From Astropecten irregularis (lineage: Eukaryota > Echinodermata > Asteroidea > Paxillosida > Astropectinidae), in assembly GCA_963971285.1 (NCBI GenBank), contig OZ020255.1:14838931-14902930 (forward strand): a DNA stretch of 64,000 nt, written 5' to 3'. How positions within the stretch are numbered: position 1 is the stretch's first letter; every line of letters begins with the position of its first letter. The translations under genes were made by a program, and so were the position numbers. The notes beneath the pieces were generated by a model, which searched no databases, was not told the origin of the DNA, and saw only the letters and a list, made by a program, of their open reading frames with translations. Positions 8,843 through 58,890 of the stretch are shown here, in pieces.

Positions 8843-11800
8843 TTATCTGCCGTAGGTTGGATTTCTGAATACTGATGTTGATGGCTTGTAGATGGGGTTT
8901 TCTCCCTGGAAATATGAGGAAAACAAATTGAATCATCAAATAACCACAATGTACAAGGGAAACTTGCGAAATTGTTTAAGTCATTGAAAAGTGAACAACA
9001 AAACATTGACTGGAGCAGGATTTGAACCAATGACCTCCAGAATACTGCACCGGCGCTCTCACCAACTGAGCTATCCAGTGCCATCCAATGTTGGTGGTGT
9101 CCCTAATAGTCAATTACCTTTGTTCGTTTGGCAGTCAGAAGCCATGAAACCATAAAACCATGCACATACAGCTATATGCCAAGTATCATTTTATCGATTG
9201 ATGATAGTGAGTTTGGTGAAATCGACCCCTGGTCGTACATTGTCTCAATTATGTTGCATTAATGAATAGGGAAGTAGCCAAGTAATTGTGAGAAACAGTC
9301 TCCGGTATTTCTCAGCCTCTCTGACTACGAAGGGACACTTGCCCAGCAGTCTGATGCCAAGAGACAAAGAAGGAAAGCATCAAGCCAGGCAGACAATCCC
9401 CATCACAGTGCCAGAGGGACTGCAACTCTCGCATCGGGCTGGTCAGCCACACCCGACACTGTTCCCGAACCAGACCAACATCCCAGAATGCAGGACCATA
9501 GGGTGTTCATGAAACGGAGGCTCGGGCTCAGGCTCCAGCTCTGACATCCATATGCTGAAAATAATAGGTTGTGGTTTTTCATTGAAGCTGAAGCTCTGTT
9601 TTCCTTTTCAAAACAGGGAATCTGCTTCAGAACCGCAGCCATTCACGAACAGTGGAGACGGAGCCTGAGCCTCCGTTTCGTAAACGCCCATATTCTTTCG
9701 AGACTGAAGGACGCCACACACACAACTTCTACTCACCCCTTCCCATCTTGCATTGGCTCTTTCTTTCTCAAATTGCTGGAACTCCCTCCTGTCATGGATG
9801 TACGTTAGTAGACGCCATATAAGAAGGAGAGCAATACCAACCAGGATGATTCCGATCACAATACCGATGATAATCCATAGAACGTCGGCAACAAGTGGAC
9901 AACCTGCAAATAAACATTTCACAATCAATCAAACTCAATCAATGACAATGTATGGAATATCCTAAAAGCAAGCATCAAACAGATTATCATGACCTTTCTT
10001 GTTTTTTCCTTCTTCTTTATGGAGGGGGTGAGGAATCGCTTTGCATAAAACACGCCAAAAACATGTTTTGACCATCATCTTAAGAGAGGGGCCAATGTTT
10101 CCTTGGAGAACTTGTACATGAACATCACAATTTAGATAAGAACATTTTGAGGGCTCTGCAGCCGATTTCACGAAACTTTACGCCATGGCGTAAGTCCACT
10201 TACGCCACAAATGTTGCGTAAGTTGCGCCACTTACGCAACATTTGTGGCGTAAGTGGACTTACGCCATGGCGTAAAGTTTCGCGAAATCGGCTGCAGGGC
10301 CTTATTATAGGCCTTAAACATAACCAGATAGACGTACTTGGTTCCTCAATGGCGTGTAATTCAATGACCCCATCTCCAATCTTCCGATAAGTGAACTCAA
10401 AGTTACACCCATTCTCATCTTGAAAAGGGCATGCGAAGCTTCCTGCAAGAAAAAAAAAATCAATAAATAAACATTTTAGAGAAACATGTTGAATGGAGAC
10501 TGATATCAATACTCAATGATCTTTTGTACAAATAATATAATCAATAAAATCTATAACCAATATTGTATTAACTGATCGACTGGTCATCAATCAAGTCATC
10601 AATACATTAAAAATCAGGGCAAAACAATCAATGAATATTCAAAAGAAACCAATGATCAATACCTTTGGGGTACGGGAGTTCTTCGAAGGTCTCCACTTCA
10701 TGTGGGCAGCTATTGCATGCATCTGCATCGTCCTTGTATTTGCCCGTCTTATAGGCTTTACATTGAACACAAGGTCTATGAAGTTCACACTCGGTTGGAC
10801 AATCCTGTACGGCAAATTACACAACATTGGATTAGCGCTGGTATGGTGTTACGGAGGTCGCTGGTTCAAACCCCACTCCAGTCATTTTGTCTTTGTTCAC
10901 TTTTCAATTACTTAAAATTCAGTCAGTTTCCCTTGTGGTAATTTGATGATAACATTGGAATAGAAATGACAATTTCATAGTTGGTAGATACAATCTAGCA
11001 ATGTTTCTATGAGTAGCAATTTACTTGTACACCACTCTCTTTTCTTTGTGGTTTCCCAGCCTTATTGCATGTTTGCCCCATTTTCAATCTGTTCCCATTA
11101 TCCTGATCCTCTCATTCATTTATGTGTATCTTTACTTGCATGTTCTTGTCCTCTTGTCATTTAGCCTTAGAAAAAAAGATCCTGATGGGATTAAAATATC
11201 AAGCCCAACTAACTCAGCATGACATATTTCATGCCATTATCTTGGTTGATGAGCAATTTGCAGCAGAAACAAGAGAATAGTGCTTTTGAAAATAAATTTG
11301 GGTTGGAAAAATGACACGACAAAGATAAAACTTACGTTACAATTTTGGCAAGTTGATCCAAGGTATTTCTTGTCACTACAGATGCACCGACCACATTCAC
11401 ACTCCCCAACATTGCTGCATATACTCTGGGAAAGAAAACAAATTTTCCATACATAAATAATTACAAATAGGGTATTAGGGAGACATGGTAGCGTCTGAAA
11501 ATGAGCATTTGGGAGGCATTGGGGATTAGGGAGACATTTCAATGTCTCCCTAAGGTATCAGCTACCTTTTAAAGACATATTTTTGCTGTCCATATTTCAA
11601 TAGAAGAGAGAGAATGCTCTCAATATGAACATATGTCAAAATCAAGTTCATTGGTTTGGAGAATGTTTAGGAATAGGTTGTAAAGTCTGTGCACGACCCT
11701 ATGGGAAAGTCTGAGATCGAAAGTGTTGGATTTTTGTAGAGGGGAGAAAAACCGGAGAACCCGAAAAAAAAGAAACCTTGTAGCATAGGAGAGAACCAAT

Positions 11801-14800
11801 GCACAACTCTACTCACATATGACCCAAGCTGGGATCGAACCCGGGCCACATTGGTGAGAAGCAAGTGCCTAACGCACTTTAACCCTATGCCCCCGAATAA
11901 TAAGGGGACCGCATCTGGCTGACAATACTGGGATCGTGTCGTGTCATGCGTGCGTATCTAAATGAAGTATTTTGACTTTCCAGGGCCCCAACTTTGTCAA
12001 GTCCAAACACATTATTGGTTGAAGAATGCCTAAGACACATCCATTCATGTGATAAGAGAATCTCATTGATAAAATAGCTGCCAAAAAAAAAAAAAACAAT
12101 CAAAATCAACAACACCAAATTAATTGTGTAAATGACTCACCCCATCAGGTGCAACGCATTTTTTAGAGTTCACTTCGCAACCACAATTACTGCCATTCCA
12201 CCCCTTGTTACACTTGCAGTAATTGAGACCTGTGTAATTATCGCATTTGCAAACACCTCTGGTTGGTCCTCCACACGGCAGTCCCTTGTATCGTTCACAG
12301 GAGAAGTTATCACATTGACACTTGTCACCATAAATCTCCTCCAACGGATTCTAAAAACCATTTCAAATTTAATTGAAAGGTGAACAAAGAAAAATTTACT
12401 GGAGCGGGATTCGAACCGGCGACCTCCTTCATTACATTGAAAGGTGAACAAAGGAAAATTGTCTGGAGCAGGATTTGAACCGGCGACCTCCTTTATTGCA
12501 TTGAAAGGTAAACAAAGAAAATTTGACTAGGGCGGGATTCGAACCGGCGACCTCCTTGTTCACCTTTCAATGACTTAAAAATTCAGTCAGTTTCCCTTGT
12601 GGTATTTGATGATTAATTAAAATTGCAGACAGACATGGGTTCATAACAGGAGGTACTCTGATTGGTAATTAACTTTCTGTGTTTTCTATACCCCCATAAT
12701 TACCTTGTTAATGGTACTATCAGATTTTGGTAGCATACCGAAACAGAAATCTTCACAGATTTACCTATAAACTTACAGGGTATACAGATGGTGATGGTAG
12801 AAACATACTTTTAAGATTTTTCTGCCAGATCAGAAGTAACAGTGAAGATTTAAAAAATACCATGGGCATTTTTCAGCCTTTTCTCCAAAAGTGGGCACCG
12901 TATGGAACTGAAAATTTCACAGATGACTGTAAATGATACTATATTCTTCCTTGATTTTTCTGCCCATGAATCTGTATTTCTTTGACAAAAACCACCACCT
13001 TCCCTTTTTTGTCCTGATCCTCTCATCCATTTATGTATATCTTTATGTGCATCTTCTTGTCCTCTTGTCATTTAGCCTTTGAGAAAGATCCTGCTAGGAT
13101 TGAATTGGCTAGGCCCTCTTAACTCCAAGCAACTTTTTTTGAATTTTGCTGGCAGCAGTGGAGTTTAAATTTCACAAATCTTTCCAAAAATGAAATGACG
13201 CCAAAATGAAAACAAGGGAAAGGAAACTCACCAATCTTGAATTGCACACACAATTTCCACAAACACATTTTCCTCTGTCTGAACATTCCACCGTGCTGTT
13301 TTGCCTGTAAGAAATGAGTACAAAATTCATTCACCCTGAACAAAAATTTTCTTTTTTTTTCACATTGTATGCTGATGATTTGTGGTGAACGAACTGCTAT
13401 GAATGCATAGCCACTGCCAGGGGTCGATTTCACGAAACTCATTGTAACTAACTATAAAACATAGGACTAATATGCATTGCAGCCCCAGAATTCAAAGGAT
13501 ACAATGGGTTATCCTTCGTATCTTGAGTTACGATCGATCGTAGGGCTTCGTGAAATCGACCCCAGGTTAAATAGATGCTGAATTTTCTCCGTGTGACGTG
13601 GTAAATGTAAATCATTCCACCCAACTTACCATGCGCAAGCAGGATCAACACCCTCTGTTTCTTCTTTATCACACGTACACTTGGCTCCTGAACGTCCGGG
13701 GAAACAGTCGCAGCCTCCGCATACCAGGGTCCCATTACCGTTGCATATGTCTGGTCCTTCCAGCTAAATTATCAGGGATGAGATTGACCAATGATAAAAA
13801 TATCTGTAAACAACTGACAAGGGGCATAACAAAATCTGAACTCTTAAAATATCCTATATTTTTGTACAGGGCCTGTAAGGGAAAACAAATTTGAAATCCA
13901 AAACAAACAAATCTGAAATCAGAAAAAAACAAATTGTGCCTTTTGATCTCACCCCAAGATCAAAACTGTTTTCGGTCTATGTTTTATTAATTTCTGGATA
14001 AATACACCATTTCAGACGGAAATATTTTAACTGTATGTTTCTACCACCACCATCTTTGTACGCTGTAAGTTCTACGTAAAACTGCTGTACATGCCCTTTT
14101 ATACATAGGTCTGTCTATGGTCTATAAGCTGATAAGAAAGAATTATTAAGAATACGTAGCTAATATTCTTTAAAATGATTACTCACTCTCTCATCAGAAC
14201 AGGCACAGTCACAAATTGCTTGGATGTTTATCTCAAGGGATTCTTTGAATGCAGTTGGTCCGACAAAGAACCTAGTGGGACAACAAAAACGAATCAAAAA
14301 CTTTTAATTTTAGACAAAAAGCATTGGAAATTTAACAGTATCCAATTTCATAGAGCTGCTTAAGCAAAAGAAATGCTTTTAAAGCATGAAATGTCTTCCT
14401 TGATCAAACAGGATTGCCAACCAAATTATCATGTGATGTTTATTTCTTTTGACTTGTATTCAGCCATTGTTTGCCAAGCATAACATTCACAAGGAGTTTT
14501 GGCTGGCATACTGATTTTATTGACCAAGGTTCTGGGTGCTTAAGCACATTTTAAATCTGTAAAACGGCATAAAATACTCACGTGAAATTCTTGTTTTGCA
14601 TTTGACAGGTTTTGTTCGTCATGGTAATGTCAAGAAAGAAAGTGACATTGTCACCAAGTTTCAGACCGCTACATTCTTGCATTCCCTTATGTGGAACACC
14701 ATCTAGGCATGTGGCTGTGTACTCTACACCAAACAGATCCGTAGGGGCGTCATCTTCAACTTTAACCCCGGATGTTATGTTCTGAAGGATAAAAGGTAAA

Positions 14801-17800
14801 TGTACGTTAATATCTTGCTGAAATGTCTGCACATGCAAAACAATTTGTAATTCAGGGGCCAATTTCATAGAGCTGCTAAGCACAAAAATTTGCTTAGCAC
14901 AAAAATGTCTCGCCCAATTATCAAAACAAACCACTTTTGAAAATTCCATTTGATATCCATGGTCAGCAAACAACAGCCAAAGAACAATCACAAGTGATAC
15001 ACAACACGTGGAAATTTGGTTGTTAACCCTGTTTTAATTAAGACAGAAATGTCATGCTTAGCTAATTTTCGTGCTAAGCAGCTCTATAAAATTTGCCCCT
15101 GGTCAAGTAATGGTTTCGAATTGCATAATATATGCCTACTTATGTATTCAATTTGTTGTGGATTTTGGTAAGATCATACATGTGTGAGTACATAAAATGC
15201 ACATGTTTTTTCAGCATAGTTATATACATGTATCAGCAAACAATTGTCTGGCCAGGTTTTTAACCTCAAATTGTAACCAAACTTAATGCTATGGCTAATA
15301 CAATGTGGAGCGCCGAAAGCCTTGTTCACTGCAAATTTGTTTTACCAATGACCATTGCCTTTTGTATCATAAAATTATAACAATTTACAAAACACAGGAC
15401 TGTAGATCTCAGACGCTGTAAACTAATTATGGTCTTAACAGGCTAACAATGTCTGAGTCTGAAGACTGTGCAATATGAGTCCTGGGGTCAATTTCACCAA
15501 ACTCATCGTAACTTACTATCAATCATAGGACTTTTGATGCATTGAAGCCCTAAGTGGGATAGGCAGATAGGCCCCCTACGATGGGTTATCCTTCGTAAAT
15601 TGAGTTAAGATCGATCGCAGGGCTTCATGAAATCAACTCCAGGGGTCGATTTCACCAAGCTCATCGTAACTTTCTATCAATCGTAGGACTTGTGATGCAT
15701 TGCAGCCCTATGTAGGATACGATGGGTTATCCTTCGTAACTCGAATTACGATCGATCGTAGGGCTTCATGAAATCGACCCCTGACCATGGAAGGTTACAT
15801 GTGACAGTGTTATTAGTGTATGATGTATCAAACTTACAAGATACACTCCTTTGACAAGTTCCACGACATTGGAGGAATCCTCTGTCAATCTATCAACTTG
15901 GCTCTCATGAAAGAATTTGGGTAAATCCTGCACAAAATAGAAAGACAAATAATGGATTGAATTTCAATTGCAAAATATTAGCAAAATTTGCTTTAGCTTC
16001 GAAATTGGTCAAAAATTAATTCTTCAATGTTTGCTTCCTTTATACAAATCTTGCATATTTACTTAAATCTCATAAAAAAATATATACTCATCAAATAACC
16101 ACAAGGGAAAATAACTGAATTTTTTATTTGAAAGGTCATTGAAAGGTGAACAAAGAAGAATTGATTGGAGTGGGATTTCGAACCAGCAACCTTAGTAGGT
16201 CGCTGGATGGAATCCCTCCCAACCTAAGGAGGTCGCTGGTTCGAATCCCTCCCCACCTAAGGAGGTCGCTGGTTCTAATCCCACTCCAGTAAATTTTTCT
16301 TTGTTCACCTTTCAATGACATAAAATATATACATACTGTATACACCCTGTACTGTATGTATACATTATAAAAACAAATTATGAATCAACTTTAACTAATT
16401 AAGTTGATCAAAATAATATCCAAGGATCAAAACTCAGGCCCTCCTTACTCTGATTAAATATTAATAAAACAAAATTGAATAGTATTAGTAAAAGCTTACT
16501 GTGTAGAATGCCATTGGATCATCCGAACCAGGTGGTACTCTGCCAATAGCAAAAATAGGTAGGATGCTGTTTTCCTTCATCTTGCCGCTAAGCTGACTTA
16601 TGGAAGGATAATCCTGTAATTAAGACCAAGGATTAACAAGGATTATTTATTTAATCAGATATAAATATAATCAGATAAATAAATACTTCTGTAGAATAAA
16701 TCCTTTCACCACTTTGCCACTTTAGGGTCAAATGGAAATTGTTCCGTTCAGATTCTGTACTTTCATTGTCATGATTGTGATACTTGGAGCCTAACGTAAA
16801 CGTTTCAGAACAAATAAATGGTATGATGTGTTTAGTAAACAAGTTATCAGCTGCAAGGTTAACTACTCATAAACATAATATACATTGTTGATAATAATTA
16901 ATAATAAGAAATAATTTATAGAGCGCAGAAACTATGTGTACTGCACATTCTCATTATCCTTGGTCATGGGGCTACATTGACATTTTTTGAAACCATCTCA
17001 AATCCCTGGGCAGCATACAGCCCTGGCTGCTATATGTGCACAAAGGTTTATAATCAAACCACAAAGCCATCTCTACTCTCACAGGTACCCATTTACTCCT
17101 GGGTGAAGAGAAGTAATTGACAAAGCTTACCTGTGTGCTTGATGCAGAATATTCCTTTGTGACGGGATCCATGTGACATTTACCATCGTTCAATTTCACA
17201 ATACCAGCAAGCTGTTTATACAAGATTAAGAACGAGGAAGTCAGAATAAAAAAAAATACAATCAAAAACACCACCAGGATATGAGCCGTTTCAAAGGTTA
17301 CAATTTAAAATGAGAGTCCTAACATCTATCAGATCTTTCATAACAAAATGATATTAAAAAAGCTCCTTTAAGATAATTTCTAAGGTCTTATATTACTTGT
17401 TTCCTTAAGGAGGACATTCTTCTAGTAATAACTTCCCTTTAGAAAAATGTTTTTTGAAAAAACGACCCCCTTCCATCCAAATATATGGCCATGAAAAAAG
17501 TTTCATAACCTCTACTGTGTAATGTGTATGTTGTTCTCAAACTATCTACCGGGTATGTGGTATCGGTTTTGCGGAAACTCCATGTAAGAATCGTTCGTAC
17601 TTTTGCACTTCTATAGCGTTCACACTTTTCGTAAGGTCTCAACGTTTCGACTAGCCTGCTCTAGTCCTCATCAGGAGACGATTGAAATGAGGGATGTCAG
17701 GTCCTTATTATGATTGCTTGGGATCCTGTTCCATGGAGGAGCTTTCTGATTGGTGCTCACTGGAGTGTGTGTAAATCCAGTGTCTGCTCGCTGGGGCGTA

Positions 17801-20800
17801 TTGTGTGAGTGGGGATTGCCTGCTCGGTCGGGTGTGTCAGTAGTAGGCTGGACACGGCTTTGGCTTTGTGGGAGGATAGGGTGCCGGGTACTTGTACATG
17901 TACATTAGTGAGATTTACCTTTCCATCTCCAGCGATGTGAAACGGAGCATCTGTGGAATAAAGCAACATGTGTCTTGCTCGGTCTCGCCAGCCAATTTCA
18001 TCCTACAACAAAAAATAAGCCAAAAAGCAAACTAGTACTGACTCAAAATAGCTATCAACCGCAGCACATACCAACAGAAATAACTGAAACGTCTGTAAAT
18101 ATTTCTCAAAGCAGCCAGAGTAAAATCATTTTGTTTCATGAGAAAAACTAGTTTTGTTAGCATCACGTTAAGATGCCTAGTGTCAGTCTTACAGCTGTTT
18201 TTTATCTTCCAAGGAAACGTTGAGCCTACCTTGCAGACAGTTGCTTGCATCAGGGCATCAAGCCCTCCTTCTGGACTATCCAAGTTCCCTGAGGCATTCA
18301 CTTTGCCAATTTCTTCCTGTAAATAAGACAACAAAAGATTACCACGTTACTGGACACACCCTTCAATTTTATTTCTATACTCGATTTCAAAGGAAAGTTG
18401 ATACTCTGGAAGGATTCCTAATCTTAACTTTGGAAAGATTTTGGCCAATGTTTCTTTCATCATGATGCAACATTCAGATGAAGATAATCTATACCTTCCA
18501 GAAATGTTCCCCTTCTTTATCCCCCCCCCCCCCCAACTCTCCTCTGCATTTTACAATGTGTAATCCATTTAGTCCTATGGTTGATTTCACAAAGCCCTAC
18601 AATCAATCGTAACTCGAGTTACGAAGGATAATCCATCGTATCCAACGTGGGTGCTGTAATGCATCACAAGTCCTCCGATTGACAGTAAGTTATGATGAGT
18701 TTGGTGAAATCTTCCCAAAGAAGAACAATTTCAACTCTTCATGAACACAAGTACTAATGATTATGTCGTAGACTTACCGAGAAGCGATTGGTTTCTGATG
18801 TGAGAGAAAGCACATTTCTGAATCCAAATGGTGGCTGGCAGACTACGTTATTCAAACAAGGATTAGCTAATCTGAAAATACAAAAAACAAACATCAAATA
18901 ACCACAAGGGAAACTGACTGAATTTATACCGACCACCTGTATGGTATTCAAGGAGGTCGCCAGTTCGAATCCCGCTCTAGTCAATTTTTCTTTGTTCATC
19001 TTTCAATAAAAAACAAACAAATGGAATTAATAACCACAGAATTGGGTTATTTAGGGGTCATTTAATAAGGTCAGAGTGCTCTTTTGTGACAAGGGCCCGA
19101 CCTCTGTCGCCTCTTAATCATGAAACTGAAAGCTTTTTCTCCATGGTTTATCACATAAAAATATTAAATGAATGGAATTACTTTATAAGAGATAAGAGAA
19201 TGGTACAATAAGACTTAAACTAACGCATGGTGGAAGTACTAAATAGTTCGCAGAGACACAATGGATGTAATTATCTCTTCTGTAAGTGTGTGGTTCTCAG
19301 AAGAACCGATGTACACTAGCACTGATTTCATTTCCTGTTTCTATGTGCGTTTACGAAACGGAGGCTCAGGCTCCGTCTCAGGCTCCGGCTCCATTTCGTG
19401 AATCCATTCTGAAATAACGGGTATCAAAAATAGAGGCTTTTGGCTGCGGTTCGGAAGTAGATTCTCTAATTTGAAAAAAGAAAACAGAGCTTCAGCTTCA
19501 ATGAAAAACCACAACCTTTATTTTCAGCATATGAATGTCAGAGCTGGAGCCTGAGCCTAAGCCTCCGTTTCGTAAACGCCCTATGTTTCAATAAAGCATG
19601 ATTTAGGTCACTGGATTAAGAATACAACACAAACATGAATCACTCACTTCTTCTGCAGGATGTCGACATACGGCATTTTGACTTTGTCTACAAATGCGCC
19701 GTATCCTAATCGGAAGTCATTGGTGATGTTTCCCATGACCTTAGCTGACGATTAAACCACAAACAAAAATATTAGTTACTATTATTGCGGAAATATTTCA
19801 CAATGTTCATGGCAAATCATGAGTACAGATGCAGATCACTATACATGTACAGTGGAATGCCGCTATAACGAACACCGCTATACCGAACATCATCCTTGGC
19901 TCCCAATTTTTATGTACATTGTAAAGGCATGCTGAACACTATAACAAACGACCACTATGACAAACAATTTCTGTGCATCCCAGCATGTTCATTATACTGT
20001 AGCAGCGCAACCCCCCCCCCCCCCCCCTTGTCCTGATCCTCTCATCCATTTATGTGTATCTTTACTTGTATATTCTTATCCTCTTATCATTTAACCTTCA
20101 ATAAAGATCCTGCTAGAATGGTAACGAGTCAGGCCCTCCAAGCAATGAATCATATCTTAAACATATTTTGATACGCATGTCTTTAATGGTGCAACTCAAT
20201 TACTTTGAAGGATGATTAGAAATACTGGTCGGTATTAAAGTTTTGTTTGTGCATGACCCTATGGGATTGTGTCCCTAAATTATCATAAATTATTTTAACA
20301 TATTGTGGCTAATGAGCAGTTTACAGAAGTTTATTAAGTATTGATTATATTTTGATATCCATGTCTTTAAAGGGAGCATACACTGTAAGAATTGCAAAGA
20401 TGTGCATTTTGGCTGAATTTGGTACTAAAACAGAAGTGAAGGTCTTAAACTTCCTTACAGACGTTGTTTCATGTACCTCTTTACGCTTAGTTCATCTGGA
20501 TTGCAGAAAAAACGGACAAATAATCTTGCCCCCCCACCCTCCATATCCTTCACAGGACGAACAATCTTTTCAAAAGACACTCAATCTTGATTTCCTTGAA
20601 AAACCCAGCATCTGATGAACCAAGATTTCCCATGGTGACTGTTTGCACTGTTAACAAACTGTTGAGTCCATTTTCTGTCTCAAATTCAATAATTGTTTTT
20701 GGAGGCCTTGCAAATCCTGTACGCTGCCTTTAATGGTGCAACTGATTGTCCTGCTTTTATTTTCCTCAGATTCATTCTATGAGTTTACTTTAAGGCATCT

Positions 20801-23800: not shown

Positions 23801-26800
23801 ATTCCTTGATATTTTGTCCATGAATCTGCATTTCTTCAACAAAAACCAAAGTGTGATACTACCTTCAAGTATGTACGTATTCAATCAACAGTGAATGAAT
23901 GTGTACCTTAGGTTGAATGATATACAATGCGACTGACTGTTGGTACTGTGCACATTATGTTCACCGCTTGAACCCCAGCACCTTTACATGGGATTACGGT
24001 AGTCAATCCATGTTTAACAGTCTTGCCATGTGATACCAACCAATCTCTATGTTAGTGAATACTATATGTCTGTCTGTATGCAGAGTGCATTATGTGCACA
24101 TGAACTCAGTATGAACATCTGGAACATCTAACCAAAGTTTCATACAGGGTGTCCCAGAAAAAACGCAACACTATCTCAGGAACCATTTTTTTTAGAATTA
24201 AACTGTTTATCACTTCAAGATTCAGCCATGTCTTGGCTATCACCATGTAGAATTTAGGCATACTGGGGCTGAAATTGGCGAAAATATGTACAATTAAAAA
24301 GAGTACTTCTTAAAGACAAATTTGCAAGGATAACACGCATAATGGTCAATACACACATAATGTGTATGAAAGAAAGATGAAGTCGGGATTTGAGGTTGGG
24401 AATTTCATTCCTAATTTTTTCCCTCAATTTCAGTCCAATTTTGCTCAAATTCTACATGGTGATAGCCAAGACATGGTTGTATCACATATCTGAATCTTGA
24501 TGTGGTAAACAGTTTAATTGTCATACAATAGCTCTCGACACAAAGTGTTACGGGGTTTTTTTTTACACCCTGTACAGAAGTCCCATGCTGTTCCGTAATG
24601 TTACATGTAACTTTACCTGGTCTCATTTCAAGTGATATCTTCTGTGGATTGACTTGAACAATTTCTCCTGTATCACCCGCATCACTGAGTTCTTTTTCCT
24701 GGAACAAGAAAACAATATTATGGTAATAATATCTTCTTCTACAGCACACAATGATCAAAGATTCCCTATGTGATATCATTATGATCCCTGGGGTCGATTT
24801 CACAAAGCCCAATTGCAACTCAAGATACGAAGGATAACCCATGGTATCCTTCAACTTCTACGTAGGGTTGCAATGCATCATACATGTAAGTCCTACAATT
24901 GATAGTAAAATGAGTTTGGTGAAATCGGCCCCAGATCATCAGGCCATAATTATTCATTCCTGATGAAACCATCTCAACTACCTAGGGAGTGTACAGCCCC
25001 ATCTGCTGTAAGAGCACAAAGGACACCATAATCAAACCACAAAGCCATCTCTACCCCACCACAGGTACCCATTTACAACTATGTAGGTGAAGAGTGAGCA
25101 ATATATGACAAAGTGTCTTGCCCAAGGATGCAAGCGCCACTAGCCCTTGGCTTGACTCGAACCCACAATCTGTAGATTGGCCACTAGGGGCCAATTTCAT
25201 AGAGCTGCTTAGCACAAAAAAATTACTTAGCACAAAAATAGCTTGCTCAATAAAAAAACCATTTGATATTCATGGTCAGCGAACAACAGCCAAAGAACAA
25301 TCACAAGTGATTCACAACACACAGAAATTTGTTAGTTAATCATGTTTTAACTAAGAAACATCATGCTTAGCAATTTTTTGTGCTAAGCAGCTCTGTGAAA
25401 TTGGCCCCAGATCTTGAGTGCAACATGCTAGGCCATGGCACCCACAAAAACAAGGACATGTACCGAACAAGGACATATACCGCGGTACATAATATGCACA
25501 CAGTCATAGCAACAAAATTGCACTACATTTAGCTCATTGCCAGTAAAAGCCAATCCTTTCATAAGTGACAGGGCAGGGGGTAAGACCGTCACTAAGATGG
25601 CTTACACATACACCTGGAATCTTAAGGAGGCCATGGCCTTTCTTTGCCCTGGATCCAATTTCAGTGAGGTGATTAGCAGAAATAAAAATAAACTTTGTAA
25701 ATTAATCATCAAATAACCACAAGGGAAACTGACTGAATTTTATGTCATTGAAAAGTGAACAAAGAAAACTTGACTGGAGCGGGATTCAAACCAGCGACCT
25801 CCATGTATGGAATACCCCACAGGCACTCTTATCAAATGAGCACCAGTACATACAGTATATTTATCTCGTACAAACCTTTAAAAAGTGTAACTTAGTAACA
25901 ATTATGGGTACAGGTATTCAGAAATGTATTACAATAGAAATGACTATGAATGACATTGTTCTAGTACATAAAACTTACGTCAATGACAGTCAAATTATTC
26001 TTTGGGAAGTTCAGATCATCTTCTTTACAGCCTCGTGTCATAAGATTCTCAGGAAGGTCACACCTCGAATATGAATCACCAAACCCCTGAAATAAAAAAC
26101 AAAAAAACAAATGTATTGAACTTTCAAAAGATGGGAAAAATTGGAGTCAAAATTATTAACTGTTAATAAAAACATAGAAAAGTGAACAAAGAAAAATTGA
26201 CTGGAGCGGGATTCGAACCGGCAACCTCCTGAACACCATACAGGCACTCTACCAACTGAGCTATCCAGCTCTACCAACTGAGCTATCCAGCCCTACGTTG
26301 GTGATGACCCCAATAGTCAATTATCTTTGTTCGTTTGTGGTTATTTGATGATTATGTTAATAAAAACATTAGGCCCTAATTCAGGGTTGCTGGTTTATTG
26401 TCCGCTGTATGTTTCTTCTTGATTTGATGGAAAAGCGTGTCATATATTCTAAGAATTTGTAAGGAATTCTGCCAGATTATTCAGTCAGTTGGTGCATGAT
26501 TAAAATAAAAACCTGATTGGACTGACAGCCGTCCTACTGTACATCATTGATTAATTCCACAAATGTCACTCATCCTGTTGCTCATGTAAACAGGTAAAAA
26601 GATATAGGATGTACATGTATTACTAGTGTGATGAACATTTTTAACATTGCTAATCAAAATAATGCACATATTTTGACTTGCAGACTTTGCAATTTCCTTA
26701 TAACAATGGCCTCCACATACTGTACAGTGTATTTTTTAAGTACGGGCACATGTACATGTAAATTCATCAGACTTTCACTTTACGTACCATTGCAAACTGC

Positions 26801-46131: not shown

Positions 46132-46137
46132 TTTATT
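46132..46137 (-). terminator. Poly(A) signal of the phenoloxidase gene
   Basis: AATAAA on the minus strand (TTTATT as given), 22 bases after the stop codon at 46,159-46,161. Position and sequence are canonical. Confidence 0.6.
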
Positions 46138-46158: not shown

Positions 46159-49100
46159 TTAACTGTTTCCATTGTCCACCCTCTTAATTATTATCGGGGT
46201 GGTTATCATGTTAGAGTAACTTTCTGCAAACTTGATGAGATTAGGATACTTGATGCTGTCGATCTTGCGATCAAATGGAAAACCCATCGCTTTCTTGTCC
46301 GGGTAGGTTTTGTCTTTAACACCGCAATAACTGGTACCCCGATCCAGATCATCAGTGCTGCTATCCATAGCCCAGTTGGTAACCATGACGAATAAATCAA
46401 ATTTCATACCAGATGTGGTGCCACGTGGTAGGAGCATATGTTGGGGCCATCCGCATTCGCAGTAGCGATCAGACCTGCAGGCACACTTAGCGCTACCTGA
46501 TTTATCCTTCTTCATATTATTACTATTATTTTTGGCTCGAATCTTAAGCTCAGGTACGGTCAGGTCACGTGGTTTAATCACGGAGGAGCTCACTGAGCTA
46601 CGTTTGATGGAGTTGGCGCCAGATTTCACTGCAAGTAAAAATCCATTATAATTCATTAATGACCAAAAAAAAATTAATCCCTGGCAATCGGGCCATAACT
46701 TACATTCCTGAAACCATCTCAACTCCCTGGTGAGTATTATAGTCCGGCGGTCACCGAAAGGTGCACAGAGGATAATCAAACCACAAATGCATCTTGCAGG
46801 TACCCATTTACACCTGAGTGAACATGAGCAATATGCGCAAAGCGTCTTGCCCAAGGACGCAAGTACCACTAGCCAATGGCTGGATTCAAACACACAATCT
46901 GTAGATTGACCACAAGCCCTTTGAGTTCGATACACCAGACCACAGGGCGCAGCACCCCATCGGGAAACCAATGCATAAGGTCTTATGGGCCTATAATCGT
47001 GAATAATGCGTTTCGGTATAACTACGATGGAGTTTGAATGAACCCAGTTTCACACTGAGCCACATCCGAATGTTAGAAGAATGATAGAACCAGTTTCATT
47101 CGTGCGCGAATAACGGCGAGTTCTCATTCCACACGCCTATACTTATACAAATGGACATTCATTCGTTTGCTCAGTAACTGTGAGATAAAAATGAAATTCG
47201 GTTAATTCGATTCGTTCTCGTTCTTATTGTTCTCGTGATTAATTCTTTACTGAATGAAATGTCTATATACTCACGTGTTATGACAAACTTATCCATCTCA
47301 ATACAGAGGCGTCTCTGCACGTCAAGTGAATGAAATGCATCGTCTTCGTCAAAACTGGGAGCCATGAAAATACGAATCGCTGCCTTCACATTCTTCTTAG
47401 TCGTATTAGTGATTTTAATGAAGTAGTCAAACTCATCATGGTTTATCTGTTGCACCGTGACCTATTGAATCGAAAAAGAGAACAAGAAATAATGACTGAA
47501 GCGGGATTCCAACCTGCGACCACCGGAATACCATATATACCGGCACTCTATACCATCTGTACGAGCTATCCAGCCCTATGTTGGTGGTTCCCCTAGTAAC
47601 AGTCAATTATATATCTGTTGTTCGTTTGGCAGTCAGAATAATTATCATTATACATGGGGCCAATTTCATAGGGCTGCTTAGCACACAAAAATCGATAAGC
47701 ATGACATTTCTGTCTTAATGAAAACAGGATTAAGAACCAAATTTCCACGTGTTGCGTATCACTTGCAATTGTTCTTTGGCTGTTGTTCACTGACCATGAA
47801 TATCAAATCGAATTTTCAATAGTGGTGTGTTTTATTGAGCAAGCCATTTTTGTGCTAAGCGGTGTGCTAAGCATCTCTATGAAATTGGCCCCTGGATGTT
47901 GTAAGTAATAATTAACGATGGTTGATTTCCGCCGTATGTAGGTCTATACTTACATTAACATCAGTATTTGCATTGAACTGCTCGTGTGAAGCCAGGAACA
48001 TGTCATGTCCAATGTTAACCACATTCGTTTCCATTCGAGTAGTCAGAAGGTTCGTGGGAACATCCTTAGCCTTGTTCGTCACCTGTGTGACAGAGCAGAG
48101 AAGTTGGTCCATTCGGTTAAAGGTAGTATCATACTTTGGTAAGACACCAAAACAGAATTGTTCACAGATTTACGTATAACTTACAGGGTATGAAGATGGT
48201 GGTGGTAGAAACATATACCGTTAAAATATTTCCGCCTGAAATGGTGTGTTTATCCAGAAATTAGTAAAACAACGACCGAAAATCTTTTTGATCTTTTAAA
48301 AGATCAAAAATAAAAGAGAAAAGACTTAAGAAATACTGTGGCCGTTTTTCACTGTTTTCTCAAAAAGTGAGTAACGTATGGAACTGAAATTTTCACAGAT
48401 GACTGTTATTGTATCTTCCTTGATATTTTTGCCCATGAATCTGTACATCTTTGACAAAAACCAAAGTATGATACTACCTTTAAGCCTTTGAGAAAGATCC
48501 TGCTAGGATCGAAACGCGTCAGGCCCTCCTAACTCCAAGTAAATTCAAGGTATTTGAATTCAGTGACAATGCATGGACTCACCTTAACCTCCAGGGAATT
48601 TACTGTAATGTCCTCGAATTCAAGCTCCTCCGGTAGGTATGGCGTCAAAGTGATCTTATGCTTGACAAACAGACCATCGATGAACTTGTGCCAGCGGAAA
48701 AAAATAGGATCACGAATGGATGCAGATACGTCCCCCATGACTCCTTGGGCCTTTGATTAAAAAAAACGAACAAATTTTATCAGTGTTCAATTTGTATAGT
48801 ATTGCACCCATACCTCCTTCAGTGAAACACGTTTTGTTTTCTCCATAACTACAAGTAATAAACAGCTGCAAAATGTTCATCAGCCAAAAAAATTACCTGA
48901 AATTTATAAAAAATTATTGGAGTTAGGAGGGCCTGACACGTTTCGATCCTATAGCAGGATCATCGAAGGCTAAATGGCAAGAGGACAAGAACGTGCAAGA
49001 GGTATAACATCTTTACTTGCATGTTCTTGTCCTTTTGTCACTAAGCTTTCGATAAAGAGCCTGCTAGGATCGAAACGCGCCGAGGGAATAATGAATAATT

Positions 49101-52100
49101 TGTTACGATAGAATAATTATATCCTTCCGATCACCGGAGAAGACATAGAAAGAAATAATAGTTTTATACCTGCTGATAACGGTAATCTGGATCAGTGATT
49201 GCTGAAAGGAGGTCATGACCCAGGTTATGAATTCCAACCTCGCCGTATAAATTTGGATTAGGAGAAGTGATGTTGGCCTCTACGGCCGCACCCAGATTAT
49301 CAATGGCCACATCTACGTCTGTACCATCGGGCTAGAGTGAAAAGGTTAGATACAGGTAATTAAAGCGTCTTGGCTGAATTGGGTACTTAACAGAAGTGAA
49401 GGTCTTAAACACCCTTACAGACGTTGTTTCATGCACCTTTTTACGCTTTATTCATCTGGATAGCAGAAATACGGCCGAAATAATCTTGCCCCCTCCGAAT
49501 CCTTCACGGTTACACCACACTTTCGAAATCGTTTGGACTAACGATCTGTTTACACTTAAAATTCATTGAAAACCCCAGTATCGGATGAACCAAGATTTCC
49601 CATGGTGACTGTTTGCACTGTTTACCAACTGTTGAGTCCATTTTCTGTCTCAAACGCAATCAGTTTTTTGGAGGCCTTGCAAATCTTGTACGCTGCCTTT
49701 AACAGGAAAACGGCGACTTTGGTGAAGGGCACAAAGCTTTTAAGGGGAATACATGCCGTCGAACTTTACCTTTCTAAACTTGCCCGTATTGATGGCATCC
49801 AGTAGGCGGTCGCGATGATATTCTTGTTCAGTGACCAGAGTAGGTTCAGTCGGATCACGCCAATTGTCGGCAAGAATCATCCCAGCAGGTCGGGCGGCAA
49901 ACTGATATGTGCCATAGTAGTCACTCAGCTGAGGATTGTACCCTTCCTGTATAATGAAATCAGTAAACTCCTCTTATAAAACCAGGGGCCAATTGCATAG
50001 AGCTGCTTAGCACAAATTGTTTGCTAAGCATGACATTTCTGTCTTAGTAAAAACAGGATTAACAACCAAATATCCGCGTGTTGTGTTACTTGTGTATCAC
50101 TTGCAATAATTGTTCAAATTGGCTGTTGTTCGCTGACCATGAATATCAAATGGAATTTTCAATGGTGGTTTGTTTTATTGGGCAAGCTATTTTTGTACTA
50201 AGCAAGTTTTTTTGCTAAGCAGCTCCATGAAATTGGTTAAGTTAAGCGTTCTTGTAGGCCCTACGTGATCCCGACAAGGCCCTCTCAATGCTGCCAAATC
50301 TTACGCCAACATAATTATTGGCATAAGAGATGCGGCAGGATTTATCGGATCCTGATCCTGTGAGCGTTTACACTCATCCTTGATCGCTATCGCGGGATCT
50401 GATTGCCCTCGCGGTATCAAGTGTAAACACGGTGATATAGGCCTTGGCGGGATCACGTATAGCTATACAAATAACCAAAGTAAATGGCTACGCTCTACCG
50501 GTTGTTTCAGCTACTGACCTGAAATAATGTTGAGTGTTCAATATGGCCGTTCTTGGAGGCCAGTGGCTCGAGTTCTCAGGGTGCAGACCAGTAAATAAGT
50601 CCAAATCAATCTCAAAATCTTTTTAATAAAAGCATTTGCTGAGGCCTACAGACAAAGTCTTGTAAAGGAAATGGATGGAACCCGGTCACCAGTCTGGACT
50701 TTCAGTTTTGAGCTGTTTGGGTGAAATCAGGCCCCCAAATCGCTCTATTTGGGCATGTAATGGAGGGGTACATTTTTTTAGTCTGGCACCAGTCAAAATG
50801 GCCGTTTTCATGGTATTTTTCTTTGGATGGATTTTTCTCAAAAAGTCATTGGTAACCCTATATAAAATTGAAAAGAAAATGAAAATTGAAGATTTCAGCT
50901 TTATTTTGCTGTATGGCTCGATTGCCTGAGAAACTTCTGAGTATTTTTAATATTTTTTGGAAATTTGCCATTTTGCATCGGAGCATATGGGAAATTATTT
51001 ACTGGTCTGCACCCCTCAACGCGCCGAATTTCATATTATCATTATGTTGATAAATAGTGCCTTCGTACTGGTGTAATTGTATGAGACGTGGTCAAGCTTT
51101 ACTCAACAATTATTGTGACAGATTAAGCCGTGTTTTCAATCTATATCATTTTTGTTAATTGAGCTTAGTAGAATCTGTTTATGATGCAGATCAGTTGTAG
51201 TTTGTTATTTTGAGAACACATACTATACAGTTTACAACATAATTATAATCTTCTGGGACGAAATTGGTTTGGTGACGGCGACTGACGGGAAACCTATGCA
51301 TTATCATTTCCACCTTTTCTGCCTAAGTACTGTACCCAATTCACGAAATTAGTGCAGACGTTCAAAATGAAAGAAAATGTATAGGGCCTACTTTTCCAAT
51401 AGAACGAGTGACCCGTAAAGTATGATTGTCATAAGGTATTTACGAAACCAGGCTTGAGGCTAGGCTTGGGACTTATATCGCTACCGCCATTAGAGTCACA
51501 CAAAACGAAATTAAGGGATTGGGTCACATGATGAAGCCGAAGGAAGGCTCCAACTTCGCCATGTATTTCAAGCCCCTTATTTCATCCAGGACACAAAATG
51601 GCGGTAGCAAAATGAATCTCAAGCCGTAGCCTCAAGCCTCATTCAGTATAAAGGCCACAACTTGCAGCGAAAGGCATATTTCTATTGACCCTGGGGTCGA
51701 TTTCACGAAGCCCTACCGTCGATCGCACTCGATTTACGAAGGATAACCCATCGTATCCTGTGTAGGGCTACAAATGCTTCATAAGTTTCACGATTGATAG
51801 TAAGTTACGATGAGTTTGGTGAAATCGACCTTAGCCTGGAACAAGCGTGGAATTAAACTCAGTCCAACAGTAGCTCCATAATTTTACCTGAATAGGTTGA
51901 TGCCAATTGATATAGGGTTCTACTCGGAGCATGTTAAGTCCCAATCTTTCGGCATCATAACGAGCAAGCATCTGCTGGTGCATGTAGTAGAATAGCTCGC
52001 CCTGTCGTTCCTTGATCACTCCTTTAACACCTCGCCATGGGTATACCTTTCCCAACAAATGGTAGAAATGTTTAAATGATGAGAGGAAAAACCACGGGCA

Positions 52101-53483
52101 GTGCAGGGGCCAATTTCATAGAGCTGCTTAGCACAAAAAATCGCTAAGCATGACATTTCTGTCTTTGTAAAAAAAAGGATTAACAACCAAATTTCCGTGT
52201 GTTGTCTATCACTTGCAATTGGTCTTTGGCTGTTGTTCGCTGACCACGAATATCAAATGAAATTTTCAATGGTGGTTTGTTTGATTGGGCAAGCTATTTT
52301 TGTTCTAAGCAATTTTTTGTGCTAAGCATCTCTACGAAATTGGCCCTAGGTCAAAATGTTCAAATACTGTACATCATCAGGTGATGACCACATAGTCTGA
52401 GTATCACCTATTCTACTCCGTGTATACGCTTGCTCGCTGTACGGCGAGTGCGTCTATCACATAAACTATATCAACTAAAAAGTTATTCATAGGCTTTCTT
52501 GAAAAAGTAAGTTTGAAGTTTACATCTGAAATATTGACAATCTCCATTTCACGAACGGAGACATCTACATAGTAACCTCCCATAATGCATTTAACCTCGT
52601 GTTCAAATGCAGCAAGCATAGTCCTATCATTAAAATTATAATAATCGAGTATTTTTGGTGGATCTGGAGAATGTAAAACAAATGTAAACGATTAAAAAGT
52701 TACTCAGCTAGCTCTATAGCCATTAACGCTTTAGTTATACACAATGTAGTTGAACATTGTTCAAAACTTTGTCATTATGATTACAAGTTGATAAAATGAG
52801 GAAGATTTTTCATAATTAGATATTCGATACAGAGGAAGAATTACCTGATGCCAGTGGTAATGGTGAGCATTGAGTGCACAATCCTCTCTCCACCAGGCTA
52901 ACTTGAACTCGGGATCGCGGTGAGTACCGGTGACGAACGGAGGGTAAGTTGGGACGTCCTTGGCACCATCTTCAAGACTGTGACTGAGAGCAATCTCGTG
53001 GGCGCGCTTTATGGCCGGCCACGGGAAGTAACTCCGTGGATTGACCTGCCAGAGGGGAGGCAGAAGAGCTCCTTCATTCTCCTCATGATGTATCATGGCC
53101 GTGGAGACGGCGTACATGTAGATGCCTTCGTTGAGTATTTTCTTGAGATGGGCAGCATTTTCCATGAATTTCTTAAAGTCACCGGAGAGGAGGTAGTCCA
53201 CTACCAAAGCTGCTTCCTCAGCGTGCGACTTCTTAAAGACGGAGAACTGTTTACCCTTGGGTAAGAGGCCAATACCAGGAGGCAGACTATCTATCGCCAG
53301 TGTTTCCTCCATCACAAATTGCCCCAAATGTCCTGGACTGTTCGTCGAGGCTCCAGTGAACATAGAGCGAACGCCTCGCTTCGGGATTCCTCCTCGGCTC
53401 GCGCCGTTGGAAATCGGCAAGGGCCTTTCATGCCGCTCAAATGGCTTGAAGAGAGACAGGACCAAGTTCTGTTTTGAATCCAT
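46159..53483 (-). CDS. Arthropod-type prophenoloxidase/hemocyanin family protein, complete
   Basis: Members bind dioxygen at a two-copper centre; phenoloxidases oxidise phenols to quinones, leading to melanin. Exons: 53483-52845, 52046-51888, 49946-49770, 49331-49170, 48750-48583, 48082-47954, 47461-47275, 46628-46159. GT-AG junctions and phases agree, giving 696 residues, the usual length for arthropod prophenoloxidases. Copper A: HHYHWH at 207-212 (ligands 208, 212) and YYMHQQ (236). Copper B: GIHNLGH (360, 364) and DPIFFRWH (400). CECGWPQHM at 597-605 is the proPO thioester-like region, and AMGFPFDR lies in the C-terminal domain. No signal peptide, as in many insect proPOs. I start at MDSKQNLVLSLF because it fits the family; an in-frame ATG at 53,577-53,579 would add 32 residues. 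Oxidase versus oxygen carrier cannot be settled by sequence alone. Confidence 0.93.
46690..46960 (-). repeat. Second SINE-like family copy
   Basis: GAAACCATCTCAACTCCCTG, CAGGTACCCATTTACACC, GTCTTGCCCAAGGACGCAAG and TTCAAACACACAATCTGTAG. It lies in the last phenoloxidase intron, next to exon 46628. Confidence 0.75.
47480..47645 (-). repeat. tRNA-derived SINE copy
   Basis: GAAGCGGGATTCCAACCTGC, then GAGCTATCCAGCCCTATG and TGTTCGTTTGGCAGTCAGA. It starts 20 bases upstream of phenoloxidase exon 47275-47461 and could influence that acceptor. Confidence 0.75.
47656..47892. repeat. Foldback MITE-B2 copy
   Basis: GGGGCCAATTTCATAGGGCT to CATCTCTATGAAATTGGCCCC. Phenoloxidase intron. Confidence 0.85.
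48118..48482. repeat. Foldback MITE-C copy
   Basis: AAAGGTAGTATCATACTTTGG to CCAAAGTATGATACTACCTTT, with GATCTTTTAAAAGATC at the fold. The terminal inverted ends are essentially intact, making this one of the best copies. It begins 36 bases from exon 47954-48082. Confidence 0.9.
48484..48545 (+). repeat. Repeat I fragment
   Basis: CCTTTGAGAAAGATCCTGCT, GGATCGAAACGCGTCAGGCC and CTCCTAACTCCAAG, directly after the MITE-C copy. Confidence 0.8.
48900..49085. repeat. Repeat I inverted pair
   Basis: GGAGTTAGGAGGGCCTGACA with TTTCGATCCTATAGCAGGAT is a reversed copy. It is followed by a forward copy, CATGTTCTTGTCCTTTTGTC and GAGCCTGCTAGGATCGAAAC. Together they form a foldback in a phenoloxidase intron. 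Confidence 0.8.
49350..49702. repeat. Repeat H copy
   Basis: TTGGCTGAATTGGGTACTTA, GATTTCCCATGGTGACTGTT and CTTGTACGCTGCCTTTAA. It matches 20,366-20,733 closely. Confidence 0.8.
49985..50237. repeat. Foldback MITE-B2 copy
   Basis: GGGGCCAATTGCATAGAGCT to AGCAGCTCCATGAAATTGG. It lies close to phenoloxidase exon 49770-49946. Confidence 0.85.
50263..50458. mobile_element. 196-bp inverted-repeat element
   Basis: ACGTGATCCCGACAAGGCC and GGCCTTGGCGGGATCACGT are 18/19 complementary ends. Internal ATCGCTATCGCGGGATC and CCTCGCGGTATCAAGTG give partial secondary pairing. Confidence 0.7.
50579..51014. mobile_element. 436-bp MITE with 20-bp perfect inverted ends
   Basis: GGGTGCAGACCAGTAAATAA and TTATTTACTGGTCTGCACCC. 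CTCA flanks both sides and may be a 4-bp target duplication. The interior has a + strand ORF of 84 codons with no recognisable domain. Phenoloxidase intron. Confidence 0.8.
51438..51655. repeat. GCTTGAGGCTAGGCTTG foldback copy
   Basis: TTTACGAAACCAGGCTTGAG opens and AGCCGTAGCCTCAAGCCTC closes. CTACCGCCATT and AATGGCGGTAGC form inner arms. The second copy is at 57,281-57,502. Confidence 0.8.
51693..51830. repeat. Foldback MITE-A copy
   Basis: GGGGTCGATTTCACGAAGCC to GAGTTTGGTGAAATCGACC. It ends 58 bases from the donor edge of phenoloxidase exon 51888-52046. Confidence 0.85.
52106..52348. repeat. Foldback MITE-B2 copy
   Basis: GGGGCCAATTTCATAGAGCT to CATCTCTACGAAATTGGCCC. First phenoloxidase intron. 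Confidence 0.85.
52413..52663 (-). CDS. Orphan terminal exon-like ORF in phenoloxidase intron 1
   Basis: On the minus strand an acceptor, TTACATTCTCCAG, precedes 82 open codons and a TAG stop at 52,413-52,415. The frame would need a phase-1 intron, whereas the surrounding phenoloxidase intron is phase 0, so it cannot be a skipped cassette without changing frame. The peptide starts PPKILDYYNFNDRTMLAAF and includes MEIVNISDVNFKLTFSR. I do not recognise it. It may be a gene fragment carried in by a transposon, a nested gene's end, or chance. Confidence 0.3.
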
Positions 53484-53730: not shown

Positions 53731-53739
53731 CTTTTTATA
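53731..53739 (-). promoter_or_regulatory. TATA box upstream of the phenoloxidase gene
   Basis: The minus strand reads TATAAAAAG, preceded by GCAATA. A start site 25-30 bases downstream would give a 5' UTR of about 220 bases to the ATG at 53,483, with no intron needed. Several out-of-frame ATGs lie in that leader. Confidence 0.5.
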
Positions 53740-53939: not shown

Positions 53940-54480
53940 AAACAGTCTGATTTACATGTACTTGTCAAGCTGTACTGGCCAAGCGTTTCTGCCAGCAGTG
54001 GCGCACCCAGGGGGGGGGGCTCGGGGTGCTTGAGCCCCCCCCCCCCCCCCCCCCCCAAGAGGGTCCCTGAAAAATAAAACCGAAAAAAAAACGAAAAAAG
54101 GGGGGAGGGAAAGGGAGAGGAGGGAGGGGGGGGGGGGGGAGTCACAAAATGTTTTGTGGGAAAAAATATTTATTTGAGCCCCCCCCCCCCCCCAAGACGA
54201 AATCCTGGGTACGCCAGTGTCTGCCAGTGATGTTCAGAAGTTGAACTCTGTTGTTAGATCTGCAGAGAGGATTATTGGTACTAACCTTCCATCACTTGAA
54301 TCAATCTATAATGAGAGACTGAGTAAACGCACTAGATCAATTATGCAGGACGAGTTCCATCCAGCAGCAGACTATTTCCAATTCCTTCCATCCAACCAAC
54401 GTCTTAAGCATTTTTATGGTAGTAAGCGCTTCACAAAGAGTTGTTATCCATGTGCAGTTCGTGTTTATAATGCAACATAG
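53940..54480 (+). pseudogene. LINE ORF2 C-terminal fragment, split by a MITE
   Basis: Removing the insert at 53,996-54,227 rejoins a frame reading LYWPSVSASDVQKLNSVVRS across the junction. It continues RSAERIIGTNLPSLESIY, FLPSNQRLKHF and SCYPCAVRVYNA, ending at TAG 54,478-54,480. This is the typical C-terminal end of a non-LTR retrotransposon ORF2 (R-A-x-RIIG, LPS, FYPxAVRxxN). Only the 3' tail of the element is left. It is a dead fragment. Confidence 0.7.
53996..54219. mobile_element. hAT-like MITE inserted in a LINE, 8-bp target duplication
   Basis: Ends CAGTGGCGCACCCAGG and CCTGGGTACGCCAGTG are inverted with two mismatches. TCTGCCAG flanks it on both sides (53,988-53,995 and 54,220-54,227). 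The interior is long G, C and A runs. Confidence 0.85.
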
Positions 54481-58659: not shown

Positions 58660-58890
58660 AAATCATCAAATAACCACAAGAGAAACTGACTGAATTTAAA
58701 GACATTGAAAAGTGAACAAAGAAAAATTTACTGGAGCAGGATTCGATCCAGCGACCTCCTGAATACCGTACAGGTGCTCTACCAACTGAGCTATCCAGCC
58801 CTACATTGGTGGTGTTCCCAATAGTCAATTATCTTTGTTCGTTTGGCAGTCAGAAGCCATGAAACCATGCACACACTACCATATCCCAAG
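58660..58890 (-). repeat. tRNA-derived SINE, most complete copy
   Basis: CATCAAATAACCACAAGAG, GAGCAGGATTCGATCCAGCG, TCTACCAACTGAGCTATCCA and CAATTATCTTTGTTCGTTTG are in the usual order. On the minus strand the tRNA-like head has A and B boxes, but its ends do not form a proper acceptor stem, so it is not a tRNA gene. Confidence 0.85.

Follow-up and report, generated by a model that had tools for sequence, protein, structure and literature searches.

A starfish gene of the arthropod-type hemocyanin and phenoloxidase superfamily, with two tandem paralogues and an apparent split before the sampled arthropod proteins

The hemocyanin and prophenoloxidase superfamily is best known from arthropods, where its copper proteins form melanin in insects and transport oxygen in crabs. 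An apparently intact gene of this type within 64,000 nucleotides of DNA (the window), assigned by an earlier note to a probable deuterostome, raises the question of which animal it belongs to, how it was inherited and what its product does. The same note called such genes under-described outside arthropods, which is fair, but members from hemichordates, tunicates, sponges and fungi are already published (PMC3658974, PMC6034248 and PMC9395347, in the portions available). For echinoderms, the PMC3658974 survey, in its available text, looked at the sea urchin S. purpuratus and found no gene for a type-3 copper protein; PMC3334994, likewise in its available text, found none of the tyrosinase family in the echinoderm genomes of its time and pointed to phenoloxidases instead. 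Echinoderm phenoloxidase activity or melanin has been reported: PMC4503460, in its available part, refers to studies of 1989 and 1991, and as gene evidence it puts forward a quinone oxidoreductase. Among the matches listed in the open-access literature, judged by title and the start of the abstract, none describes an arthropod-type phenoloxidase gene in a starfish; subscription journals or automatic annotations could hold one.

The identity of the host is best read from its mitochondrial genome, which is contig C168 (16335 bases) of an assembly of 475.7 Mb in 168 contigs. The order begins with trnF, the stretch where 12S is expected (12S itself was not detected) and trnT, then 16S, ND2 and ND1 on the minus strand. 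The plus strand next carries a tRNA cluster, COX1 and further genes, and ND6 stands on the minus strand before CYTB. Here, 16S was called with Rfam, COX1, ND5 and CYTB with Pfam, and the other protein genes by reading frames. The published starfish arrangement has ND1, ND2, ND6 and 16S on one strand, puts 12S beside trnPhe and has trnThr and 16S flanking the control region (PMC1382216, available part), and one gene order is common to eight asteroids (PMC6262923, available part). Gene order and strands of C168 agree with this arrangement, and on that basis the host belongs to the echinoderms, almost certainly to the asteroids, which narrows the probable deuterostome to Asteroidea. Gene order is the stronger evidence, and codon AAA adds modest support. 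With AAA read as Asn (table 21) rather than Lys (table 5), two of three ND5 Pfam scores rise, by 4.1 and 2.3 bits, and the third falls by 2.0; the three CYTB scores change by +2.3, +1.7 and −1.0. Elsewhere in the assembly, C131:32162-33484, on a small contig that is perhaps bacterial, carries a COX1 frame free of stops and TGA, and C25:9951047-9952018 a partial mitochondrial-type COX1 with 7 TGA, perhaps a nuclear copy.

The window gene lies on the minus strand, 53483-46159, of a 20.07-Mb contig (C19), and its eight exons join in frame to 696 residues, as had been read from the letters, with all seven introns GT...AG (419 to 1941 bases), the first six in phase 0 and the last in phase 1. Exon 1 (639 nt, 52845..53483) contains the start ATG, the N domain with blocker Phe83, and CuA histidines 208 and 212. 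Exon 2 (159 nt, 51888..52046) holds the third CuA histidine (236), the segment GELFYYMHQQ, and Gln228 at the site that is Arg or Lys in arthropods. Exon 3 (177 nt, 49770..49946) is followed by exon 4 (162 nt, 49170..49331), with the catalytic Glu343 and CuB histidines 360 and 364, and by exon 5 (168 nt, 48583..48750), with the third CuB histidine (400). Exon 6 (129 nt, 47954..48082) and exon 7 (187 nt, 47275..47461, ending in phase 1) lead to exon 8 (470 nt to the stop, 46159..46628), which carries the CECGWPQHM segment and Cys589, 591, 597, 599 and 642. On the same strand, a TATAAA (53734..53739) precedes the ATG by 256 bases and an AATAAA (46132..46137) follows the stop by 21. Both are present as first described, but they count as motifs rather than as a TATA box and a poly(A) signal, and TATAAA sits elsewhere in the two paralogues described below, at −62 in both.

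The best support for the predicted exon structure comes from these paralogues, which have the same eight exons, with exons 2-7 identical in length. In both, an in-frame stop lies 20 codons upstream of the start with no ATG between, which supports the start ATG of the window gene; an alternative in-frame ATG 32 codons upstream in the window copy was rejected on this ground. Also rejected as an extra exon was an open frame in intron 1 (52413-52691, minus strand), which has no Pfam match and needs no counterpart in the paralogues.

The genome-wide profile search matched Hemocyanin_M three times and Hemocyanin_C six times, counted by exon; since scoring was confined to the best candidates, these are minimum counts. 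All of the matches fall within three genes, and none of 14 control genomes gave a match to either profile. Besides the window copy, these are two full-length tandem paralogues on a 21.46-Mb contig (C16), copy A at 16196383-16202170 (688 residues) and copy B at 16210693-16216404 (689 residues), neither with an internal stop and each with one GC-AG intron. The window protein is 83.1% and 82.4% identical to A and B, and A is 93.3% identical to B. Nei-Gojobori dN/dS values of 0.234 (window-A), 0.240 (window-B) and 0.295 (A-B) show that all three copies are under purifying selection.

The introns of the window gene also carry a MITE-like repeat of about 250 bp, with inverted matches between its ends. 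Five near-full-length copies are present in the window, three of them inside the gene, on the plus strand in intron 1 (52104..52343), intron 2 (49981..50244) and intron 6 (47656..47888), and two elsewhere (14859-15103 and 25191-25408); at an E of 1e-5, none is found in 40 kb around the C16 genes. These insertions, in a single dispersed copy whose upstream region is mostly unlike that of the tandem pair, are what one might expect if the window copy were decaying and without function. Against this, its frame is open, all splice sites and active-site residues are intact, and dN/dS to the paralogues is 0.23-0.24, so that we regard decay as very improbable. The same setting bears on whether the gene came from an arthropod, either as contamination or by recent transfer from a prey or commensal species, as the prominence of the superfamily in arthropods might suggest. 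A 20-Mb contig, two paralogues on a second contig of 21 Mb, and introns holding a repeat present elsewhere in the window all argue against contamination.

Other features of the window include integrin beta exons on the minus strand at 9611-18346, possibly extending to about 24857, with cytoplasmic, EGF-like and VWA domains matched by Pfam in three scanned frames. Rfam matches three tRNAs, at 9007-9080, 26198-26270 and 58728-58800 (minus), and ARAGORN only the middle one, as tRNA-Thr. Long C/G homopolymer runs at 54000-54200 lie beside a plus-strand frame, 54178-54477, without Pfam support, which we take to resemble the end of a LINE reverse transcriptase.

What kind of protein does the gene encode? 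Three Pfam domains follow one another in the order Hemocyanin_N (8.3e-13), Hemocyanin_M (4.3e-56), Hemocyanin_C (1.8e-59), with E-values that chance would not give. The Hemocyanin_N match begins at profile position 58 of 124, and residues 1-66 have no significant match of their own; full-length alignments of PDB chains 8ji8 and 8jib to the protein start at residue 5. The tyrosinase profile PF00264 also matches (4.5e-06), and the alpha- and gamma-subclass tyrosinases share the type-3 copper site, but the starfish copper domain is flanked by Hemocyanin_N and Hemocyanin_C. A second type-3 copper relative was noted in the genome, L019:1180-1968 minus (C16:13319662-13319841), with a tyrosinase domain (PF00264, 1.6e-10). 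By eye, its third CuB histidine seems to be missing, and GYDRxGYD-like repeats follow; it is possibly a tyrosinase-like protein that is not an enzyme.

The window protein matches 25 distinct solved sequences in the PDB, led by 3ixv, “Hemocyanin AA6 chain” (1.3e-125), and Manduca PPO1 (3.5e-113), with hexamerin-type chains and fungal AsqI (5yy2) scoring below both. The chains 8ji8_A and 8jib_A are deposited as “TK receptor”, probably a naming slip, since by sequence they are phenoloxidases (8jib matches Manduca PPO1 at 2.6e-250 and is placed accordingly in the tree). On sequence grounds, the window gene is confirmed as an echinoderm member of the arthropod-type hemocyanin/phenoloxidase superfamily. 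The prophenoloxidase/hemocyanin identity first proposed stands at that level, but we do not file the protein as an arthropod prophenoloxidase, because it has no Arg-Phe dipeptide, lacks one disulfide partner and has Gln or His in place of Arg or Lys at an active-site position.

These features emerge from mapping residues onto Anopheles PPO8 (AgPPO8), with roles taken from the available part of PMC4700666. We compared the three starfish proteins with ten bacterial relatives and eight arthropod chains, four of them phenoloxidase-type (Manduca PPO1 and PPO2, Anopheles PPO8 and 8jib) and four hemocyanins (3ixv, 1oxy, 1hc1 and 6l8s). We take 3ixv, 1hc1 and 6l8s to come from scorpion, spiny lobster and shrimp; 1oxy is from Limulus (PMC3658974, available part). 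All three starfish copies keep the six copper histidines in two H-x3-H...H sets, bearing out the six reported for the window protein in canonical motifs. Also kept in all three are the blocker Phe (AgPPO8 F99, here Phe83), the equivalents of F248, F415 and N380, together with catalytic Glu343 (E364 in AgPPO8), which hemocyanins keep too. Changing this residue in AgPPO8 (E364Q) removes nearly 89% of the oxidase and 93% of the hydroxylase activity (PMC4700666, available part). The three-domain fold, six histidines, blocker Phe, catalytic Glu, Asn at N380 and a CxCGWP segment are thus shared with arthropod prophenoloxidases, and the domains and copper site are also shared with arthropod hemocyanins.

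The differences lie around this core. At the R244 site, two starfish copies have Gln and one has His, as do all ten bacterial proteins (Gln or His), whereas the site is Arg in the four phenoloxidase chains and Lys in the four arthropod hemocyanins. From this distribution, a basic residue here looks like an arthropod change, and Gln or His in the starfish would fit a branch preceding the arthropod ones; the E364-R244 salt bridge cannot form in the starfish proteins. In domain 3, AgPPO8 has disulfides C592-C636 and C594-C643, which are common in the superfamily but do not define it. Equivalents of C592, C594 and C643 are present in the starfish, but C636 is Leu in all three, leaving one disulfide unpartnered. 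This is no bar to superfamily membership, since two accepted crustacean hemocyanin chains likewise lack C592 and C636. Two extra cysteines (589 and 591) form a C-x-C just upstream of CECGWPQHM. The residue before CGWPQHM is Glu, between the two cysteines of the segment, in the starfish, Gly in the four phenoloxidase-type chains and Ser in the four hemocyanins, so that the Glu noted in place of the Gly usual in arthropod proPO, with Cys retained, is real. The GWPQHM segment was also called thioester-like; the segment is there, but the term describes a resemblance only. The deuterostome relatives, tunicate CinPO1/2 and the hemichordate “hemocyanin” of the beta-subclass, belong to the same superfamily and were compared by their descriptions (PMC3658974, PMC6034248, PMC9395347, available parts). 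The PMC3658974 table, as available, gives no disulfides for hemichordate and urochordate members, whereas the starfish proteins keep Cys at C594 and C643.

Where, then, does the starfish family branch? With two starfish proteins aligned to two arthropod ones as the query, we scanned bacterial and archaeal genomes and obtained 84 pattern matches. Ten loci (L021-L030) encode relatives, all bacterial, from six phyla: Chloroflexi, Cyanobacteria, Acidobacteria and kin, Proteobacteria, Bacteroidota and Actinobacteria. In viral contigs, 29 stretches fit the pattern and none encodes a relative. The six histidines and catalytic Glu are present in all ten bacterial proteins, and the six scanned with Pfam all have Hemocyanin_M and Hemocyanin_C, as in the starfish, but none has a Hemocyanin_N match. 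In the available PMC3658974 table, bacteria are listed under the alpha-subclass only.

The maximum likelihood tree contains 21 sequences over 513 trimmed columns and is rooted on the ten bacterial proteins, the root being an assumption. It was built on a set without tunicate, hemichordate or sponge members, leaving out 3wky (Prophenoloxidase b), ten hexamerin-type or storage chains, AsqI (5yy2), two near-duplicate Limulus chains, 8ji8 and two of the three 6l8s chains. The eight arthropod chains form one group, with SH-aLRT/UFBoot support of 97.4/96, and the three starfish proteins are its sister; the bacterial relatives form a separate clade (100/100). The window protein is 40-42% identical to chelicerate hemocyanins (42.4% at most), 36-38.5% to phenoloxidase chains (four chains, 36.1-38.5%), 33-34% to crustacean hemocyanins and 30-36% to bacterial proteins. 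In the AU test, grouping the starfish with phenoloxidase chains (0.007) or a chelicerate hemocyanin (0.034) is rejected, while grouping with all hemocyanins (0.082) or a crustacean hemocyanin (0.090) is not, and the more conservative SH test leaves all four arthropod placements standing (p-SH 0.30-0.38). When the two crustacean hemocyanins, which have long branches, and the incomplete bacterial protein L029 are removed (reduced tree, LG+I+G4), support for arthropod unity is 97.3/99, and both remaining alternatives, phenoloxidase and chelicerate hemocyanin, are rejected by AU (0.018 and 0.036) and by SH (0.029 and 0.037). The best tree thus places the starfish proteins outside the eight sampled arthropod chains, although some tests leave this open.

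For contamination, which the earlier note had named as its own refutation if a tree placed the gene inside crustaceans or insects with near identity, the outcome is a position outside arthropods in the best trees and at most 42.4% identity to the eight chains over the 513 columns. Contig context, paralogues, repeat-bearing introns and this low identity exclude it, and recent transfer from an arthropod is refuted as well, the phenoloxidase and chelicerate placements being rejected by AU in the full set and by both tests in the reduced one; we give an arthropod source hardly any probability.

An ancient bacterial transfer into the lineage of echinoderms or ambulacrarians, separate from the history of the arthropod genes, deserves more weight, since full-length bacterial relatives exist, share Gln or His at the R244 site with the starfish and are no further from it than crustacean hemocyanins are. 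Constraining the starfish to group with all bacteria is uninformative, because without a root that tree and the best one are identical. Joining the starfish to L023, the bacterial protein with the highest identity, is rejected, however (p-AU 4e-5, p-SH 0.0014), and chelicerate hemocyanins and phenoloxidases are nearer to the starfish than most bacteria are. Vertical descent is also simpler, because hemichordate and tunicate members are known, and we consider a bacterial origin improbable.

With vertical descent as the preferred reading, the question of function comes down to enzyme or oxygen carrier, which sequence alone cannot separate. Several findings count against a phenoloxidase: the best single match is a hemocyanin (3ixv), and the Arg-Phe dipeptide, the E364-R244 bridge and a partner for one disulfide cysteine are missing. 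An oxygen-binding or storage protein, hemocyanin-like or hexamerin-like, would account for the rank of 3ixv ahead of Manduca PPO1 and for the blocker Phe, which hemocyanins also have. Of these, a copper-free hexamerin is ruled out because all six histidines are kept. A secreted carrier would be expected to have a signal peptide, but by hydropathy the starfish proteins have no evident one. No strongly hydrophobic N-terminal stretch was found, the best 11-mer means being 0.72, 1.01 and 1.25 in the three copies, which sets the starfish apart from hemocyanins and agrees with arthropod prophenoloxidases. Beta-subclass enzymes have no signal peptide (PMC3658974, available part). The catalytic Glu, kept in all three copies, also speaks for an enzyme, though hemocyanins keep it too. 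We judge the carrier reading unlikely.

In our view, it is likely that the asteroid genome encodes three functional paralogues of beta-subclass type-3 copper proteins, most likely phenoloxidases, that descended vertically and parted from the arthropod line before the hemocyanins and phenoloxidases sampled from arthropods separated from each other. Each protein would fold into an alpha-helical N domain, a helical M domain holding the dicopper site and a beta-barrel C domain, and would lack a classical signal peptide and be stored, probably in coelomocytes (blood cells), in a latent state with Phe83 covering the copper pair. Release and opening may be triggered by a protease, a lipid, a detergent-like compound or a conformational change. 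Glu343 would then take a proton from a mono- or diphenol, and copper-bound O2 would hydroxylate the phenol or oxidize it to a quinone, which could go on to melanin polymer or protein cross-linking. For the starfish protein, we infer its expression, cell type, latency, activation route and reaction in this way, and with them a role in melanisation. In arthropods, the activation site is R51-F52 in PPO8, and several cleavage sites exist among species (PMC4700666, available part). The Arg-Phe dipeptide is absent throughout all three starfish copies, which suggests a trigger different from the arthropod switch, with that variety of sites as a caveat. A genome search for CLIP domains gave no matches, and no control genome gave one either.

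A more specific reading, which we put forward only tentatively and hold to be doubtful, is that the asteroid gene represents a pre-arthropod form, an intracellular phenoloxidase of the beta type in which the Arg/Lys partner and the Arg-Phe switch were never present, and which is activated without a CLIP cascade and is the source of the echinoderm activity. If this were true, the protease-switched prophenoloxidase and the hemocyanin carrier would be arthropod inventions built on an older enzyme shared with bacteria. More broadly, an echinoderm member fills the gap reported for the sea urchin. The three intact starfish genes provide a concrete candidate for the long-reported echinoderm phenoloxidase, whose gene identity becomes directly testable. 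In a family that keeps ancestral-looking active-site residues, they also offer a deuterostome reference for the ancestor of hemocyanin and prophenoloxidase, before oxygen transport and protease switching.
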